From Thermus sediminis (GTDB taxonomy: Bacteria > Deinococcota > Deinococci > Deinococcales > Thermaceae), in assembly GCF_003426945.1 (NCBI RefSeq), contig NZ_QURO01000004.1, forward strand, positions 868,001 through 932,000: DNA of 64,000 nt, in the 5' to 3' direction. The notes beneath the pieces are model-generated. The model was not told where the DNA came from. It saw only the letters and a list, made by a program, of their open reading frames with translations, and searched no databases. Both the position numbers and the translations under genes were made by a program. Below are positions 2,017 through 8,673 of the stretch, piece after piece (positions within the stretch are counted from its first letter, which is position 1; each line of letters opens with the position of its first letter).

Positions 2017-2463
2017 ATGAGAAAGGGGATAGTGGCTCTTCTCCTTCTCGGCGGCCTGGCCCTGGCCCAGGCGGATGGGGCCAGGCTCTACGCCCAGTGC
2101 GCGGGGTGCCACCAGGCAAACGGGCAGGGCATCCCGGGGGCCTTCCCACCCCTGGCCGGGCATATGGCGGAGATCCTGGCCAAGCAGGGCGGGCGGGAGT
2201 ACCTCATCAGGACCCTCCTCTGGGGCCTCCAAGGCCCGATCGAGGTCAGAGGGGTGAGGTACAACGGGGTCATGCCCGCTTACAACCAGTGGAGGGACGA
2301 GGAAATCGCCGCCGTCCTCAACCACATCGCCACCGCCTGGGGGGATGACAAGAAGGTCCAGGGCTTCAGGCCCTTCACCGCAGAGGAGGTCAGGAGGCTC
2401 AGGGGGCAGAGGCTTACCCCCCAGCAGGTGCTGGAGGAAAGGAGGAGGCTGGGCCTGAGGTAA
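2017..2463 (+). CDS. Small exported monoheme cytochrome c
   Basis: The 148-aa protein starts MRKGIVALLLLGGLALAQA, a typical signal peptide, followed by LYAQCAGCHQANGQGIPGAFPPLAGH. CAGCH is the heme-attachment motif and PPLAGH is typical of the class I cytochrome c fold. The axial Met candidate is in YNGVMPAYNQW. It is divergent from the sox operon across a 250-bp regulatory region, so it may accept electrons from SoxAX. That link rests on location only. The C-terminal about 40 residues form a basic, charged tail. Confidence 0.88.
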   Translation: MRKGIVALLLLGGLALAQADGARLYAQCAGCHQANGQGIPGAFPPLAGHMAEILAKQGGREYLIRTLLWGLQGPIEVRGVRYNGVMPAYNQWRDEEIAAVLNHIATAWGDDKKVQGFRPFTAEEVRRLRGQRLTPQQVLEERRRLGLR

Positions 2464-2480
2464 CCGCCTGAGGCCCACCT

Positions 2481-2512
2481 GCCCCAGGGCTTGCCCCTGG
2501 GGCCTCTGCTTT
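2481..2512 (+). terminator. Rho-independent terminator after the cytochrome c gene
   Basis: A 9-bp GC stem (GCCCCAGGG/CCCTGGGGC, 2481-2489 and 2495-2503) has a 5-nt loop and is followed by CTCTGCTTT. The T-rich tail runs straight into the TTTAAT that precedes the next gene. Confidence 0.7.
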
Positions 2513-2515
2513 AAT
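2510..2515 (+). promoter_or_regulatory. -10 element for a leaderless GTG start
   Basis: TTTAAT (five of six to consensus) ends six bases before the GTG at 2522. There is no Shine-Dalgarno sequence, only six Gs between. The same spacing recurs before many genes in this window. No convincing -35 is visible because that position falls inside the terminator stem. Confidence 0.5.
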
Positions 2516-2521
2516 GGGGGG

Positions 2522-3472
2522 GTGCTGGCGCTCGCGGTGAGGAAGGCCTTCCCTGGGTTTCGGCTGGAGATAGCGCTGGAGGTCCAGGAAGGGGAGGTCC
2601 TAGCCCTCCTCGGCCCCTCGGGGAGCGGGAAGAGCACCCTCCTCAAGCTGGTGGCCGGCCTCCTCCAGCCGGATGCGGGGTCTGTCCGCTTCGGAGGGCT
2701 GGACCTCACCTCCTTGCCCCCGGAGAGGCGCAAGGTGGGCTTCCTCTTCCAGGACTACGCCCTCTTCCCCCACCTCACCGTGGCCGAGAACATCGCCTTC
2801 GGCCTCCTCGAGGCCCGCTGGCCCAAGGCGGCCCGGGAGGAGAGGGTAAAGGAGCTCCTCGCCCGCATGGAGCTCACCCCCCACGCCGGGAAGCGCCCCC
2901 AGGAGCTCTCCGGAGGGGAGCAGCAAAGGGTGGCCCTGGCCCGGGCCCTGGCCCCTAAGCCCCGCCTCCTCCTCCTGGACGAGCCCCTGGGGGCCTTGGA
3001 CCTGAGGCTTAGGGAGGAACTCCTCCTCTTCCTGCGCCGCACCTTGCGGGAGGAGGGGGTTACCGCGCTCCTCGTGACCCACGACCAAGAGGAGGCCTTC
3101 CTCCTGGCCCACCGGGTGGCCCTCCTGCGGGAGGGGCGGATCGTCCAAGTGGGGAGGCCTGAGGAGGTCTACGCCCACCCCAAGGACCCCTGGGCCGCCC
3201 GCTTCCTGGGGCACAAGAACCTCCTTTCCCCCGAGGAGAGCCAGGCCCTGGGCCTTCCTCCCAAGGCCCACCTCCTCCCGCCCAAGGCCCTCTCCCTGGG
3301 GGGGCCTTTGGAAGGCGTGGTGGAGGAGCGCCTCTTTTTCGGCCCCCGGGTGGGGCTTTGGGTGCGACTCGGGGGGGTGCGGCTTTACCTGGAGGCCCAA
3401 GAGGGCCCCAGGGAGGGGGAGAGGGTAGGCCTCCATCTGGACGCTTTCCAGGTGGTAACCTTGGAGGGATGA
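2522..3472 (+). CDS. ABC transporter ATP-binding protein with TOBE-like C-terminus
   Basis: This nucleotide-binding subunit of an importer has all motifs: Walker A GPSGSGKST (residues about 31-39), Q-loop FLFQDYALFPH, signature LSGGEQQR, Walker B LLLLDEP and H-loop LVTHD. About 80 residues follow the ATPase domain and look like the TOBE domain of iron, molybdate or spermidine/putrescine-type importers. The 316-aa length is longer than a bare ThiQ. No permease or binding protein is adjacent. It overlaps the thiamine pyrophosphokinase gene by ATGA, so thiamine or a precursor is a possible substrate, but that is inference. Confidence 0.9.
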   Translation: MLALAVRKAFPGFRLEIALEVQEGEVLALLGPSGSGKSTLLKLVAGLLQPDAGSVRFGGLDLTSLPPERRKVGFLFQDYALFPHLTVAENIAFGLLEARWPKAAREERVKELLARMELTPHAGKRPQELSGGEQQRVALARALAPKPRLLLLDEPLGALDLRLREELLLFLRRTLREEGVTALLVTHDQEEAFLLAHRVALLREGRIVQVGRPEEVYAHPKDPWAARFLGHKNLLSPEESQALGLPPKAHLLPPKALSLGGPLEGVVEERLFFGPRVGLWVRLGGVRLYLEAQEGPREGERVGLHLDAFQVVTLEG

Positions 3473-4119: not shown

Positions 4120-4195
4120 GGGCCGCTAGCTCAACCGGTAGAGCAACCGACTCTTAATCGGTGGGTTACAGGTTCGAGTCCTGTGCGGCCCACCA
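4120..4195 (+). tRNA. tRNA-Lys (CUU)
   Basis: A complete cloverleaf is visible. The acceptor stem is GGGCCGC/GCGGCCC, the D arm is AGCTCAACCGGTAGAGC, and the anticodon stem ACCGA/TCGGT encloses loop CTCTTAA, giving anticodon CTT. The T arm contains GGTTCGAGTCC, and the discriminator A and CCA are encoded. The length is 76 nt. It is transcribed from its own promoter and followed by a hairpin terminator. Confidence 0.96.
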
Positions 4196-4228: not shown

Positions 4229-5260
4229 ATGGAATCCGTGGACCTACCCAAAAACCCTCTGGACCTTATTTACTTGGATCTCCCCCAAGGAGAGCCGTGG
4301 GGCTACGCCATGGCGCATGGCCTTCTAAAAGCTCCTTGGGCCTGGCGGGCCCTTCGGCCCACCCCGGGGCTTTTGGATATAATACAACAAGACCTCGAGG
4401 CCCACTTCCTGGAGTTGGAGCGGCTGAGACAGGAAGTCCCCCTAGGAAGCCTGGGAGAGCGCCCCCCCTCCCCCCCGGAGGAAGGGGCCTTGGAAGCCCT
4501 TCTCAAGCGGGACCCCGAGGCCATGGTTCGGGTGCTCAAGGCCCATGGCCCCTGGCCCTACGCCCTCTACCGGGCCTTCCGCTTTGACGGAGAGGTGCGC
4601 CCCCTTTCCCAGCCTCGCCTTCCCCGGGAAGACGAGCTTGTGGGCTACGAAGACCAGCTGAGGGCCCTTCGGGAAAACGCCCGGCGCTTCCTGGAAGGGA
4701 AGCCCGCCCTTCACACCCTCCTCTACGGGGCCCGGGGCACGGGGAAGAGCACCGCCGCCAAAAGCCTTCTCCACCTGGAGGGGGTGCGGATGGTGGAGGT
4801 GGAGCTTAGGGCCCTGGGCCAGCTGGAAGGGCTTCTGGAAACCCTGGCTCCCCTTCCCCACCGCTTCTTCCTCTTCCTGGACGACCTCTCCTTGGACCCC
4901 AGGGACGAGGCCTTCCACCCCCTCAAGGCCCTCCTGGAGGGAAGCCTCGAGGGGCCCCCGGAAAACGTCCTCCTCCTCGCCACCTCCAACCGCCGCCACC
5001 TGGTGCGCCACCAGGGGGAAAACCCCCTTCCTGGGGCCGACCCCGCCTCGTGGGACGAGCTCCAGGACACCCTGGCCCTCGCCGAGCGCTTTGGGCTAGT
5101 GCTCACCTTCCCCCCCTTTGACAAGGCGCTTTACCTGAAGGCGGTGACCCACCACCTGGGCCGTCCCCTCACGGAAGAAGAGGAAAGGGAAGCCCTCCGC
5201 TTCGCCCTGAACCGGGGCTTCTCCGGGCGGGTGGCGAGGCAGTTCGCCCTAAGTCGTTGA
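4229..5260 (+). CDS. DUF815-type AAA+ ATPase
   Basis: The 343-aa protein has a P-loop GARGTGKSTAAK near residue 170, Walker B FFLFLDDLSL and a sensor-like LLLATSNRRHL. The central order LVGYEDQLRALRENARRFLEG ... HTLLYGARGTGKS matches DUF815 ATPases, whose function is not established. The start at ATG 4229 lies 3 nt past the T-run of the tRNA terminator and has no clear ribosome binding site, so a later start is possible. The TATAAT at 4378-4383 is inside the frame. The C-terminus, RQFALSR, ends exactly where the AT-rich insert begins. Confidence 0.75.
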   Translation: MESVDLPKNPLDLIYLDLPQGEPWGYAMAHGLLKAPWAWRALRPTPGLLDIIQQDLEAHFLELERLRQEVPLGSLGERPPSPPEEGALEALLKRDPEAMVRVLKAHGPWPYALYRAFRFDGEVRPLSQPRLPREDELVGYEDQLRALRENARRFLEGKPALHTLLYGARGTGKSTAAKSLLHLEGVRMVEVELRALGQLEGLLETLAPLPHRFFLFLDDLSLDPRDEAFHPLKALLEGSLEGPPENVLLLATSNRRHLVRHQGENPLPGADPASWDELQDTLALAERFGLVLTFPPFDKALYLKAVTHHLGRPLTEEEEREALRFALNRGFSGRVARQFALSR

Positions 5261-5286
5261 CAGAGATGTGCTGATTGTAATAACCT
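5257..5286 (+). promoter_or_regulatory. Promoter of the DUF262 gene, overlapping the upstream stop codon
   Basis: TTGACA (5257-5262, containing the TGA stop of the DUF815 gene), an 18-nt spacer and TAACCT (5281-5286) end six bases before the GTG at 5293. This implies a leaderless transcript. TAATAA at 5278-5283 is an alternative -10. Confidence 0.6.
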
Positions 5287-5292
5287 CGGTAT

Positions 5293-6978
5293 GTGCGGAC
5301 AGGCTCATTCCGTATAAACCAACTATTGAGAAAAGTCAAGGTCGGCCAGTTTAGGCTTCCTCAATTTCAGCGAGATTTCGTTTGGAATGAAGCCCAGGTT
5401 GCCTTACTTATTGATTCAATCGCCCGCAATTACCCCATTGGCTCCTTACTCCTGTTGGAGCCTAGCCCGGAAATTCGCCTAAGTACCAGGCCTCTCGAAG
5501 TTGCGGCAAGTGAAGTAGACACTTACTTTTCCCCCGAGACACCTTTAGAGGATGAGGTATTAGCCGATGCGCAAGAGTTGCTCATTTTAGATGGACAGCA
5601 GAGAATGACCTCTATCGTTCGTGTGCTGCTGAACCTCAACCCCTCAAAAACATATTGGTTTGATTTACACGATATTTACGATTCATTTCAAGAGGAAAGA
5701 TCGGATTGGATCAAAAAGACTTCAGGAAGGACAAAAGATACAACGCGCAATAATGGACGATGGATTCGAGCAGACCTGGTTATTGAAGGCGAGGAGCAAA
5801 AATATGTCATTAATTACTTTTTAGACTTTTTTGGCGATGAAAAGGAAAAGGCTATGCAGGCAATCCAAAAAGTTAGCCGAATATTCGAAACCATCCGCAA
5901 CTACGAAGTACCCTACATCCTCCTGGAAGGCCAGGAAGGCGTAGAAGCTATTTGTCGGATTTTTGAAACGATAAACTCAACGGGCACACGTCTAACCACC
6001 TTTGATTTGGCCGTTGCACGCTATTTTCCCAATCCAGATCTGCGTTACCTGTACGAAACTGCACGCACTTCACATCAGGTGCTCAGTGATTTTGATGTAG
6101 ACGGCGAGCGCATACTGCAAATAATTGTCCTCCTTGAAAAAAATACGGAGCCTTCTCGCGGTGAACAGCTTAGATTAACCAAAGAAGACATCCACAAGGA
6201 TTGGCACAAAGCGGTTGAGGCTTTAGTAAAGGCCATAAAATGGGCACAAAATGAGTGCGGGCTTGAACCAAGGTATTACGTCGGCGAAAGCCAGCTAGTA
6301 GCCCTTGCTGGAGTTTTGTCTGGTTTAGAACCTTCTGAACAAAAGGCGTTTCTCGCCCGAAAGGGAGATTTGCTTGTTCAATGGTTTTTTTCAAATGTCC
6401 TGCAAAGTGGCTTCCGGGCAACAAATTATAGAATCTTCACTCATTATAGAAGCCTACAAAAATTACTGGAAGAAGGCGAGATTCCTGCTGACGATATACC
6501 CACGGTCAAACTAGACCTTGACACCTTGATAAATTTGGCAAAAAGTGATAACCGTTATAAGGCTATTCTTGCTCTTTTGAGGCGCTCAATCATGGAAGAT
6601 TTTTACTCAGGGGCCAAAATAGAGTCTAGCAATTTGGAAATACACCATATATTTCCTAGATCCTTTGGAGCAAAAAAGAAGGTAGACTCCATAGCAAATT
6701 TGGTACCCCTGACTCGCGAAAGCAACCAACTGTTATCAAACAGAAACCCTTCCGAATACATAGCTGAACTTGGTAAGCGCACGAGCACATACAAAGCAAA
6801 CAAGCGCCTGGCTGGTGCCCTTTTCCCCGTACGCCTTACTCCAACGGGGGAGATCAATCCTCAAATCCTATCTGATGACCAGTATGAAATATTCCTACAG
6901 GAAAGAGGTAAGCTCATCCTTAAGAAAATCAAAGAAGTTGTGGGTCCGCACTTTAGCGATGACCCACTAGAAGAGTAG
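5293..6978 (+). CDS. GmrSD-like DUF262/HNH protein (candidate modification-dependent restriction or anti-phage nuclease)
   Basis: The 561-aa protein has an N-terminal DUF262 domain: FRINQLLRKV, GQFRLPQFQRDFVWNE and DSIARNYPIGSLLLLE, with the diagnostic LILDGQQRMTS near residue 97. The C-terminal region carries a DUF1524/HNH-like nuclease motif, LEIHHIFPRSF (about residue 448), followed by NLVPLTRESNQLLSNRNP. Known relatives are GmrSD, SspE and BrxU, which use a DUF262 NTP-sensing or hydrolysing domain with an HNH nuclease against modified or unmodified phage DNA. The gene is much richer in A and T than all neighbours, uses A/T third positions, and stands alone without methylase or partner genes, so it was almost certainly acquired. 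GTG 5293 is the only sensible start; ATG 5291 is in another frame and stops at once. Confidence 0.82.
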   Translation: MRTGSFRINQLLRKVKVGQFRLPQFQRDFVWNEAQVALLIDSIARNYPIGSLLLLEPSPEIRLSTRPLEVAASEVDTYFSPETPLEDEVLADAQELLILDGQQRMTSIVRVLLNLNPSKTYWFDLHDIYDSFQEERSDWIKKTSGRTKDTTRNNGRWIRADLVIEGEEQKYVINYFLDFFGDEKEKAMQAIQKVSRIFETIRNYEVPYILLEGQEGVEAICRIFETINSTGTRLTTFDLAVARYFPNPDLRYLYETARTSHQVLSDFDVDGERILQIIVLLEKNTEPSRGEQLRLTKEDIHKDWHKAVEALVKAIKWAQNECGLEPRYYVGESQLVALAGVLSGLEPSEQKAFLARKGDLLVQWFFSNVLQSGFRATNYRIFTHYRSLQKLLEEGEIPADDIPTVKLDLDTLINLAKSDNRYKAILALLRRSIMEDFYSGAKIESSNLEIHHIFPRSFGAKKKVDSIANLVPLTRESNQLLSNRNPSEYIAELGKRTSTYKANKRLAGALFPVRLTPTGEINPQILSDDQYEIFLQERGKLILKKIKEVVGPHFSDDPLEE

Positions 6979-7014
6979 TTTGCTTGCTTTCTACATCCTA
7001 GTCTTTCCCTTTGG

Positions 7015-8673
7015 TTATGAAGTTTTTAGTTTTCTAGAAAACCTCAAGGCCGCCTCCACGAACCCGGCGAAGGGCGGCGAGGGGCGCATGGGGCGGCTCT
7101 TGAACTCGGGGTGGCTCTGGAGGCCCAGGAAGAAGGGGTGGTCCTTGAGCTCGATGGCCTCCACCAGCCCCACCCCCCGGCTCTTCATCCCCGGGGTGGT
7201 GGCGGAGATGACGAGGCCCGCCCGCTCCAACTGGTCCACATAGAGGGGGTTCACCTCGTAGCGGTGGCGGTGCCGCTCCAAGGCCTCCTCCCGGCCATAG
7301 AGGCGGTGGAGGAGGGTGCCGGGCCTTATGCGCATGGGCCAGTCCCCCAGGCGCATGGTCCCTCCCAGGCCCTCCACCTCCAACTGCTCCGGCATGAGGT
7401 CAATCACGGGGTGGGGGGTGTAGGGGTCAAACTCCGTGGAGTTGGCCCCCCGGAGGCCCGCCACGTTCCGGGCGAACTCAATGACGGCGATCTGCAGACC
7501 TAGGCAGATCCCCAGGTAGGGGATCCCCTTCTCCCTGGCGTACTGGGCGGCCCGCACCTTGCCCTCAATCCCCCGCACGCCGAAGCCGCCGGGAACCAGA
7601 ATGCCCGCCACGTCCGCGAAGGCCTCGTCCAGGTCGGCCCCCTCCAGGCCCTCGGCGTCCACCCACTTCACCTCCACCCGGGCCCGGTTCTTGATCCCGG
7701 CGTGCTTCAGGGCCTCGAGGAGGGAGAGGTAGGCGTCCGGCATCCTCACGTACTTCCCGGCGATGGCGATGCGCACCGTGCGCTCCGGGTTCTTCAGGAC
7801 GCGCACCGCCTCCTGCCAGAAGGCCAGGTTGGGGAAGAGGGGCTCGAGGCCCAGGCCCCGCTCCACCGCCCGGCCCAGACCCTGCTCCTCGAGGAGGAGG
7901 GGGACCTCGTAGAGGTGCTCCACGTTGGGGCTAGAGAAGACATAGCCCGGGCGCACGTTGGTGAAAAGGGCCACCTTCCTCCTCACCTCCTCGGGCACGG
8001 GCTTTACCGAGCGGAGGACGATGGCGTCGGGCTGGATGCCCACGCCTCTCAGGGTGGCCACGGAGTGCTGCGTGGGCTTGGTCTTGAACTCCTCGCTGGT
8101 CTCCAGATAGGGGACCAGGGTCAGGTGGATGTAAAAGGTGTTTCCCTCCCCCTCGTCAAAGCGGAACTGGCGGATGGCCTCCAGGAAGGGGAGGCTCTCA
8201 ATGTCCCCCACCGTGCCCCCCACCTCCACCACGGCGATCTCCGCCCCCTGCTCCTCCGCCACCTTGCGGATCCGGTCCTTGATCTCGTCGGTGACGTGGG
8301 GGATGACCTGGACCGTCTGGGAGAGGTACTCCCCCCGGCGCTCCTTCTGGATCACGGAGAGGTAGACCTGGCCCGTGGTGAGGTTGTTGCCCCGGGATAG
8401 GTCCAGGTCCAAAAAGCGCTCGTAGTGGCCGATGTCCAAGTCGGTCTCGGCCCCGTCGGCGGTGACGAAGACCTCCCCGTGCTCGTAGGGGCGCATGGTC
8501 CCCGCATCCACGTTCACGTAGGGGTCAATCTTGATGGCCGTGACCCGGTAGCCCCGGGCCCTTAGGAGGGCCCCCAAGGAGGAGGTGAGGATCCCCTTCC
8601 CCAGGCTAGAGACCACACCCCCGGTGACGAACACGTACTTCCTAGGCTTAGAGCTTTCGGAAACCCCGTTCAC
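7015..8673 (-). CDS. pyrG: CTP synthase
   Basis: CTP synthase makes CTP from UTP, ATP and glutamine. The 552-aa protein has the synthetase domain ([46 protein letters not shown]) and the class I glutaminase domain (VPGGFGVRG, catalytic Cys in YLGICLGLQ, and the His-Glu pair in SHPEFKSRP). GTG 8673 is the start, and TAGGCT lies 8 nt upstream as a possible -10. The last eight sense codons (FSRKLKTS) are AT-rich, unlike the rest of the gene, suggesting the 3' end was rewritten when the adjacent foreign segment inserted. Confidence 0.97.

Follow-up and report, generated by a model that had tools for sequence, protein, structure and literature searches.

The gene and its setting

This analysis concerns a single gene of Thermus sediminis that encodes a 561-residue DUF262-HNH protein of the BrxU/GmrSD kind. 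The gene lies in a 64,000-nucleotide stretch of contig NZ_QURO01000004.1 (positions 868,001 to 932,000, hereafter the window), and an earlier note, made from the letters of this stretch, had drawn attention to it. The open reading frame is intact, begins with GTG, belongs to the chromosome of a genome assembled in four contigs, and has a DUF815 ATPase gene on its left and pyrG on its right (Table 1). Its G+C content (GC) is 0.444, with 0.436 at third codon positions (GC3), against 0.679 for the window; the GC3 values of the flanking genes are 0.80 (DUF815) and 0.92 (pyrG). The AT-rich stretch starts at about 5231-5261, ends at about 7030, and comprises the gene, a short upstream region and roughly 50 bases past the stop codon. 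The window and 20 further stretches of 20 kb from this genome, 464 kb in all, were divided into 886 one-kb segments. Just five had GC below 0.50: two lie in the DUF262-HNH gene, and a single glycosyltransferase gene accounts for the other three. The low GC of the gene is therefore far beyond chance, and the earlier description of an AT-rich single gene in a GC-rich chromosome was correct.

The gene was also rightly described as solitary. Its own genome holds one DUF262 match, no match to a C5 methylase (the methylase class searched) and, at an E-value of 0.001, none to a DndC-like protein (the Ssp component searched), and PglZ of the BREX systems was found in none of the 27 Thermus genomes. 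The 3' end of the neighboring tRNA-Lys (4120-4195) occurs once in the window when up to three mismatches are allowed, which agrees with the absence of a tRNA-end duplication noted before; a tRNA-targeted island was rejected on this ground, the tRNA being one gene away with its end unrepeated. No repeats of 12 bases or more bracket the gene, and transposition with target duplication was rejected accordingly.

Table 1 Features of the locus in window positions
Feature	Position	Strand	Basis or remark
DUF262-HNH protein, BrxU/GmrSD-like, 561 aa	5293..6978	+	Domains, profile, fold
DUF262 (GmrSD_N) domain, nucleoside triphosphate-binding sensor by homology	5314..6027	+	DGQQR 5590-5604; S42 5416-5418
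Predicted HNH (beta-beta-alpha metal) nuclease core, residues 436-486	6598..6750	+	HHIFP 6643-6657; N469, N478
Probable promoter	5257..5284	+	TTGACA 5257-5262; AATAAC 5279-5284; layout common to six orthologues
DUF815 AAA ATPase gene, left flank	4229..5260	+	Pfam 7.2e-61; present in 27/27 Thermus genomes
pyrG (CTP synthase), right flank, convergent with the gene	7015..8673	-	Named by reading the sequence; adjacent in carriers and empty genomes

Domains, active-site residues and predicted fold

Pfam analysis placed GmrSD_N (DUF262, PF03235) at residues 8-245 (E 3.3e-33) and HNH_4 at residues 436-486 (E 3.1e-6), both beyond their cut-offs. An alignment of 29 sequences was then inspected, consisting of the window copy, four other Thermus copies and 24 relatives from viral contigs. 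Residues invariant in all 29 include Q26, R27, S42, D100-R104, F224 and N228 in the N-terminal part and H451, H452, P455, N469, N478 and R538 in the C-terminal part. The QR (Q26-R27), DGQQR (D100-R104) and FxxxN (F224, N228) motifs of the GmrSD/BrxU enzymes, as defined in PMC4619093 and PMC11411939, are all present, which bears out the DUF262 assignment of the earlier note. The RLFDS-type nucleotide/dimer motif reads LIDS here, with S42 invariant. In BrxU, the substitutions S42A, S42D, Q101A, R102A, D474A and H475A each abolish phage resistance and DNA cleavage (PMC8565348). The residues aligned to these BrxU positions are S42, Q103, R104, H451 and H452; four of the five are identical, and the fifth is changed from aspartate to histidine (D474 vs H451). 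The catalytic set of BrxU has been listed as DH-N-N-D (PMC12707154).

Searches of solved structures gave a consistent picture of kinship. With the single sequence, BrxU (7p9k) was the sole clear relative (9e-13). A profile of the 29 members matched BrxU over its full length (profile 10-555 on chain 7-580, E 6.1e-36), followed by DndI (9jfl, 2e-9), the DUF262 protein 20yv (4e-9) and SspE (2e-5). The best PADLOC models were HEC-05 in all six Thermus copies, with 1.1e-30 for the window protein (best stretch residues 5-108), and HEC-05 has been equated with BrxU (PMC11411939). The suggested kinship with GmrSD and BrxU is thus confirmed, BrxU being the best full-length relative. The further suggestion that the gene was the window's best candidate for an undescribed system has to be given up, as single-gene BrxU/HEC-05-type enzymes have already been described; the Thermus protein belongs to the known GmrSD/BrxU type IV kind.

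The HNH site was modeled, as the earlier note had proposed, with AlphaFold2 on the 29-row alignment (mean per-residue confidence, pLDDT, 84.7; predicted template-modeling score, pTM, 0.66); a previous model from six sequences was set aside at a pLDDT of 46. In the model used, the HNH active-site residues are surrounded by two strands (448-452 and 470-474) and a helix (475-481). The predicted fold is like that of BrxU, which headed the Foldseek results (1.2e-15) before DndI and SspE, with Cas9 HNH domains lower. Structural alignment to BrxU with VIA-align gave Z 18.4 over 477-492 residues and a root-mean-square deviation of about 19 A. In the model the relative placement of the domains therefore differs from that in BrxU, and such a value would fit mobile domains. 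Cas9 chains were matched mostly around residues 418-540, and a Cas9/IscB relation was rejected since the HNH part alone matches, far below the cut-offs. A fold search of viral proteins returned DUF262 proteins of giant viruses and phages, none of them closer than BrxU.

A probable promoter of its own

The gene appears to carry its own promoter, as the earlier note had claimed. The AATAAC element ends 8 nucleotides before the start codon, and TTGACA shares bases with the DUF815 stop codon. All six Thermus copies have a TTGAYM box that starts 35-37 nucleotides upstream of the start codon; in five of them it overlaps the DUF815 stop codon, and in all six a weaker -10 element ends 6-8 bases before the start codon. 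The best promoter scores are 10, 9, 9, 8, 10 and 8 of 12; nine matches of 12 at that placement occur in 0.2-1.1% of shuffled upstream regions. For genomes G035 and G023 the candidate promoter is supported by the common placement and not by the score. A generic promoter scanner, whose rule for the second hexamer is stricter, listed no site here, and over the region it returned one promoter-like site against 2.0 in shuffles. Judged from this spacing, the transcript is probably leaderless.

One junction, occupied or empty

The DUF815 gene is present in all 27 Thermus genomes, and six of them carry a close orthologue of the window gene, in every case between DUF815 and pyrG. The carriers include T. 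arciformis, T. igniterrae and T. caliditerrae, and the window copy is 70-77% identical to the other five. All six copies are intact. In the remaining 21 genomes DUF815 and pyrG are direct neighbors, tail to tail, their matched ends overlapping by a few bases in two genomes, separated by 8-37 bases in 17 (one of these, G042, is a fragmentary assembly) and by about 110 and 120 bases in G025 and G027. The 21 empty junctions contain no match to the gene, and no degenerating copies were seen there. The gene is hence found at the same locus in 6 of 27 genomes, with low GC in all six, rather than throughout Thermus with normal GC, the outcome that the earlier note had named as contrary to its reading. 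The longer empty junctions of G025 (L046) and G027 (L025) hold a palindromic element within their 110-120 bases, with a GGGGCCCC core in both as judged by eye, and this element may be a dispersed Thermus repeat.

A DUF262 match of any kind occurs in 13 of the 27 genomes, exactly one in each. Different DUF262 genes lie elsewhere in seven other Thermus genomes and on one T. thermophilus plasmid (L007, L010-L012, L017-L020, L056, L076). Among the titles and abstracts retrieved on Thermus together with DUF262, type IV restriction or amelioration, none is about this gene, and in the extracts of papers that contain both Thermus and DUF262 the Thermus mentions shown are confined to the reference list.

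Carriers are scattered over a tree of the flanks (DUF815 plus pyrG, 26 genomes, with the fragmentary G042 left out). The six carriers require six state changes, at least five of which are forced by well-supported branches, and shuffled carrier labels require 5.6 on average; the carriers are therefore not clustered at all. The history of gain and loss is uncertain because seven of the 22 inner branches of this tree are open forks.

Comparison of individual genomes bears on how the gene moves. Copies in G035 and G037 are 99.5% identical and share 220 of 221 fourfold-degenerate sites, while their DUF815 and pyrG genes are 85.1% and 92.6% identical. The near-identical tract takes in the last 95 bases of DUF815, with one mismatch among them, and extends 45 bases into pyrG, where the edge is soft because pyrG differs by only 7%. 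Near-identical copies in diverged flanks indicate one recent transfer between species in which the gene was exchanged with short flanking tracts. In a second comparison, the DUF815 flanks of carrier G031 and empty G044 agree at about 99% up to a point about 150-200 bases short of the gene, and in the pyrG flank identity is about 97% once about 50 bases have been passed. Over the last 87 DUF815 bases compared, G044 resembles its empty clade mates (0.94-0.98) and G031 resembles nobody above 0.92; either a gain or a loss may lie behind this pair. Three other pairs of carrier and empty genome are too diverged for the edges to be placed. Natural transformation is known in Thermus (PMC3235269, PMC4180962), and transformation followed by recombination in the flanks would be the simplest vehicle.

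Base composition of the six copies

All six copies are AT-rich, with GC of 0.44-0.46 and fourfold-site GC of 0.43-0.48, whereas the fourfold-site GC in the same genomes is 0.78-0.90 for DUF815 and 0.92-0.97 for pyrG. For 10 of the 15 pairs of copies, fourfold-site identity differs from random by less than two standard deviations; four of the remaining pairs have z of 2.0-4.6, and the last is the near-identical G035/G037 pair. In the same genomes the flanking genes give z of 4.0-11.0 (DUF815) and 6.8-11.9 (pyrG). Nonsynonymous divergence between copies is limited (dN 0.11-0.28) while synonymous divergence (dS) is saturated or above 3 outside the recent pair, and the protein is therefore under purifying selection.

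These values change the meaning of the low GC. Read as an island, as in the earlier note, it suggests recently acquired foreign DNA. One recent gain from a donor with AT-rich DNA was rejected as a general reading: the six copies are alike in composition and most pairs are saturated at silent sites. Since all six orthologues are equally AT-rich with silent sites mostly saturated, composition does not date the arrival of the gene, and its low GC is not demonstrably a sign of youth. The idea that DUF262 genes are generally AT-rich in Thermus was rejected as well, because the others measured (six of the seven genomes and the T. thermophilus plasmid; G041 was not measured) have GC of 0.54-0.63 and GC3 of 0.65-0.85. 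AT-rich relatives were found in other genera of the family (L008 and L009 at 0.46, L016 at 0.50).

Two accounts of this composition were compared. The first, somewhat better than an even bet in our judgment, is long residence in Thermus with exchange between lineages and without drift to Thermus GC. The second, a tentative reading to which we give clearly less weight, is that the copies were imported separately and repeatedly from a hidden pool of AT-rich donors. Repeated import accounts for saturation and composition together, as the silent sites are random in the ten copy pairs and not in the flanks. The proteins are also less thermophile-like by one measure, with a charged-minus-polar excess of 0.04-0.08 against 0.12-0.16 in the flanking proteins; the IVYWREL fraction is 0.43-0.46 in the six copies and 0.44-0.48 in the flanking proteins. 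Import is further favored by the viral-contig relatives, whose GC was determined at 27 of 44 loci and is on average 7 points under the surroundings, and at least 10 points lower in 10 of the 27. Because these relatives also fall below their surroundings, AT-richness may be common or recurrent in the DUF262-HNH family. In two viral contigs, L118 and L125, the DUF262-HNH relatives have GC about 0.20 under the surroundings.

Repeated import is opposed by the exact common site of all six copies, which needs flanking Thermus DNA, and by the failure to find a pool. Matches were obtained in 407 of 72,556 plasmid records and 8 of 50,697 phage records, none reaching 60% identity (best listed 33.6% for plasmids and 30.7% for phages), and a scan of 84,980 species, sensitive to close relatives only, returned three loci, all in Thermus. 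Of the plasmid relatives, the closest lies in Tistrella mobilis and is a single gene adjoined by a MazE-like regulator with no annotated restriction or methylase gene nearby; more distant relatives on the three plasmids inspected for this adjoin restriction, helicase or toxin-antitoxin genes. In addition, gene distances follow flank distances when G035 is left out (Mantel r 0.56 for DNA, with 7 of 120 permutations as high, and 0.64 for protein, with 3 of 120). The unrooted five-species topologies of gene and flanks agree, one of the two flank splits being weak (53/41), although G000 and G028 stand nearer to G023 than expected from the flanks, and the trees conflict once G035 is included. The gene tree was kept unrooted, the Tistrella and viral outgroup branches being too long. 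On this evidence we lean towards long residence with exchange.

The other clearly AT-rich gene of the 464-kb sample encodes a family 2 glycosyltransferase (L087:3486-4652, C4 ~803.5-804.7 kb; GC 0.41) and sits within what by eye is a polysaccharide-type gene cluster. Near it, a 774-residue sugar-nucleotide epimerase/decarboxylase-like frame (L087:7100-9424, C4 ~807.1-809.4 kb) seems, again by eye, to bear an intein between RIFN and TYGPAM.

Proposed function and alternatives

We propose, with a probability of roughly 0.7, that the product is a BrxU-like, modification-dependent (type IV) restriction enzyme that works as a single protein, and that its gene is a patchily distributed defense gene at one fixed site. 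The observed basis of this proposal is the domains, the conserved active-site residues, the predicted fold, the fixed site, the scattered occupancy, one recent transfer between species, purifying selection and the low GC of every copy. By homology, the DUF262 domain would bind and hydrolyze nucleoside triphosphate and recognize incoming DNA by a modification that it bears; cutting of this DNA would fall to the C-terminal HNH domain. No partner protein would be needed, because in this proposal the host itself lacks the mark. Thermus lineages would acquire and lose the gene when short homologous flanks recombine, most simply during natural transformation. Modification sensing, nuclease activity and an anti-phage or anti-plasmid role are thus all predicted from relatives such as BrxU, which acts on DNA containing 5-methylcytosine (5mC), 5-hydroxymethylcytosine (5hmC) or glucosyl-5hmC (PMC10952713).

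Several points weigh against this proposal, beginning with the fact that catalytic activity is itself predicted. With 22.6 bits, the GmrSD_C (DUF1524) profile narrowly missed its cut-off of 23; of the HNH/DUF1524-like region described in the earlier note, the HNH part stands and the DUF1524 part is borderline. The C-terminal motif is HHIFPR, with N469 and N478 downstream, instead of the canonical GmrD motif (E/D)HxxPQ (PMC4619093). The position of BrxU R38 is not conserved either, although R38A behaved as wild type in BrxU. A 5mC-dependent enzyme should avoid hosts with a C5 methylase, and carriers are therefore expected to lack one; such methylases were found in none of six carriers and two of 21 non-carriers, which is the expected direction and far too few to serve as evidence. 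Finally, the extracts of the Thermus phage literature name no phage with modified DNA.

Of the two genomes with a C5 methylase, one (G044) is nearly a twin of carrier G031 but has an empty junction, which is an anecdote and not a test. By eye, its methylase gene (L062:1390-2502) overlaps a convergent DNA-glycosylase-like frame (2377-3120).

An unlikely alternative, though the best of those considered for function, is that the gene acts in conflict with foreign DNA generally and mainly with plasmids, in the manner of PFLU4242. This solitary chromosomal DUF262-DUF1524 gene of Pseudomonas fluorescens causes plasmid cost and SOS induction, and its loss of function abolishes the plasmid cost (PMC8544851). 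The Thermus gene has the same two-domain, single-gene architecture and is likewise chromosomal and solitary. The likeness is one of architecture, however, and the carrier genome comprises four contigs, such that extra replicons may coexist with the gene.

Highly improbable in our estimation is a homing-like selfish element whose HNH domain cuts the empty DUF815-pyrG junction and which spreads by gene conversion. Such an element would fit a lone HNH gene of AT-rich DNA that occupies one exact site in carriers scattered over the tree and is exchanged with a short tract on either edge. The fully conserved DUF262 active site, the relatives at unrelated sites, the variation of the junction between empty genomes, and the finding of six intact copies without degenerating ones at the 21 empty junctions argue against it. 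Hardly less speculative is the notion that the junction is a dedicated exchange site, where the nuclease promotes its own spread without an integrase or att site and the exchanged cassette escapes host GC pressure. The least probable alternative is a phosphorothioate-sensing nickase of the SspE/DndI kind working with host DNA-sulfur modification: DndI and SspE are next in fold and among the next in profile, but BrxU scores far higher by both, and DndC-like matches are absent from the carrier's own genome, weak in eight of 27 genomes, none of them a carrier, and nowhere over the cut-off.

Implications

The notable part is evolutionary: a lone AT-rich defense gene at one junction, present or cleanly absent, and exchanged with short flanks. 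The locus also calls for caution: recent arrival is what low GC usually signals, yet six orthologues at the same site have 44-46% GC with their silent sites largely turned over, and these six replicates allow one to ask what stops a defense gene from drifting to host composition. If of BrxU type, the enzyme would be a thermostable nuclease that might find use in cleaving modified DNA; it would also serve as a test of which modifications Thermus phages or plasmids carry.

Comparison with known systems

Among characterized systems, TgvAB/GrwAB of Vibrio cholerae have one subunit of the same architecture; they are two-protein systems, while the single DUF262 match in the Thermus genome leaves no second partner. 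PFLU4242 shares the solitary chromosomal DUF262-DUF1524 organization, by description rather than by sequence comparison, and is known for plasmid cost and not for a fixed exchange site. SspE and DndI, which sense phosphorothioates, resemble the Thermus protein in fold and N-terminal motifs, but the match is weaker than to BrxU and the genome gave no DndC-like match. The GmrSD fusion enzymes (Eco94GmrSD) likewise combine DUF262 (GmrSD_N) with a His-Me nuclease and carry the QR, DGQQR and FxxxN motifs; in the Thermus protein HNH_4 passes its own cut-off where GmrSD_C falls just short. The closest system is BrxU (HEC-05) of plasmid pEFER (7p9k/7p9m), a single protein with DUF262 followed by HNH that is homologous over the full length, similar in fold, and alike in S42, DGQQR and the catalytic histidine. 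The two differ in sequence (about 18% identity in structural alignments), in DHIYP of BrxU versus HHIFP, and in setting, the Thermus gene being AT-rich and located at a fixed chromosomal site away from BREX. For a BrxU-type enzyme, the BREX neighborhood is context and not a requirement.

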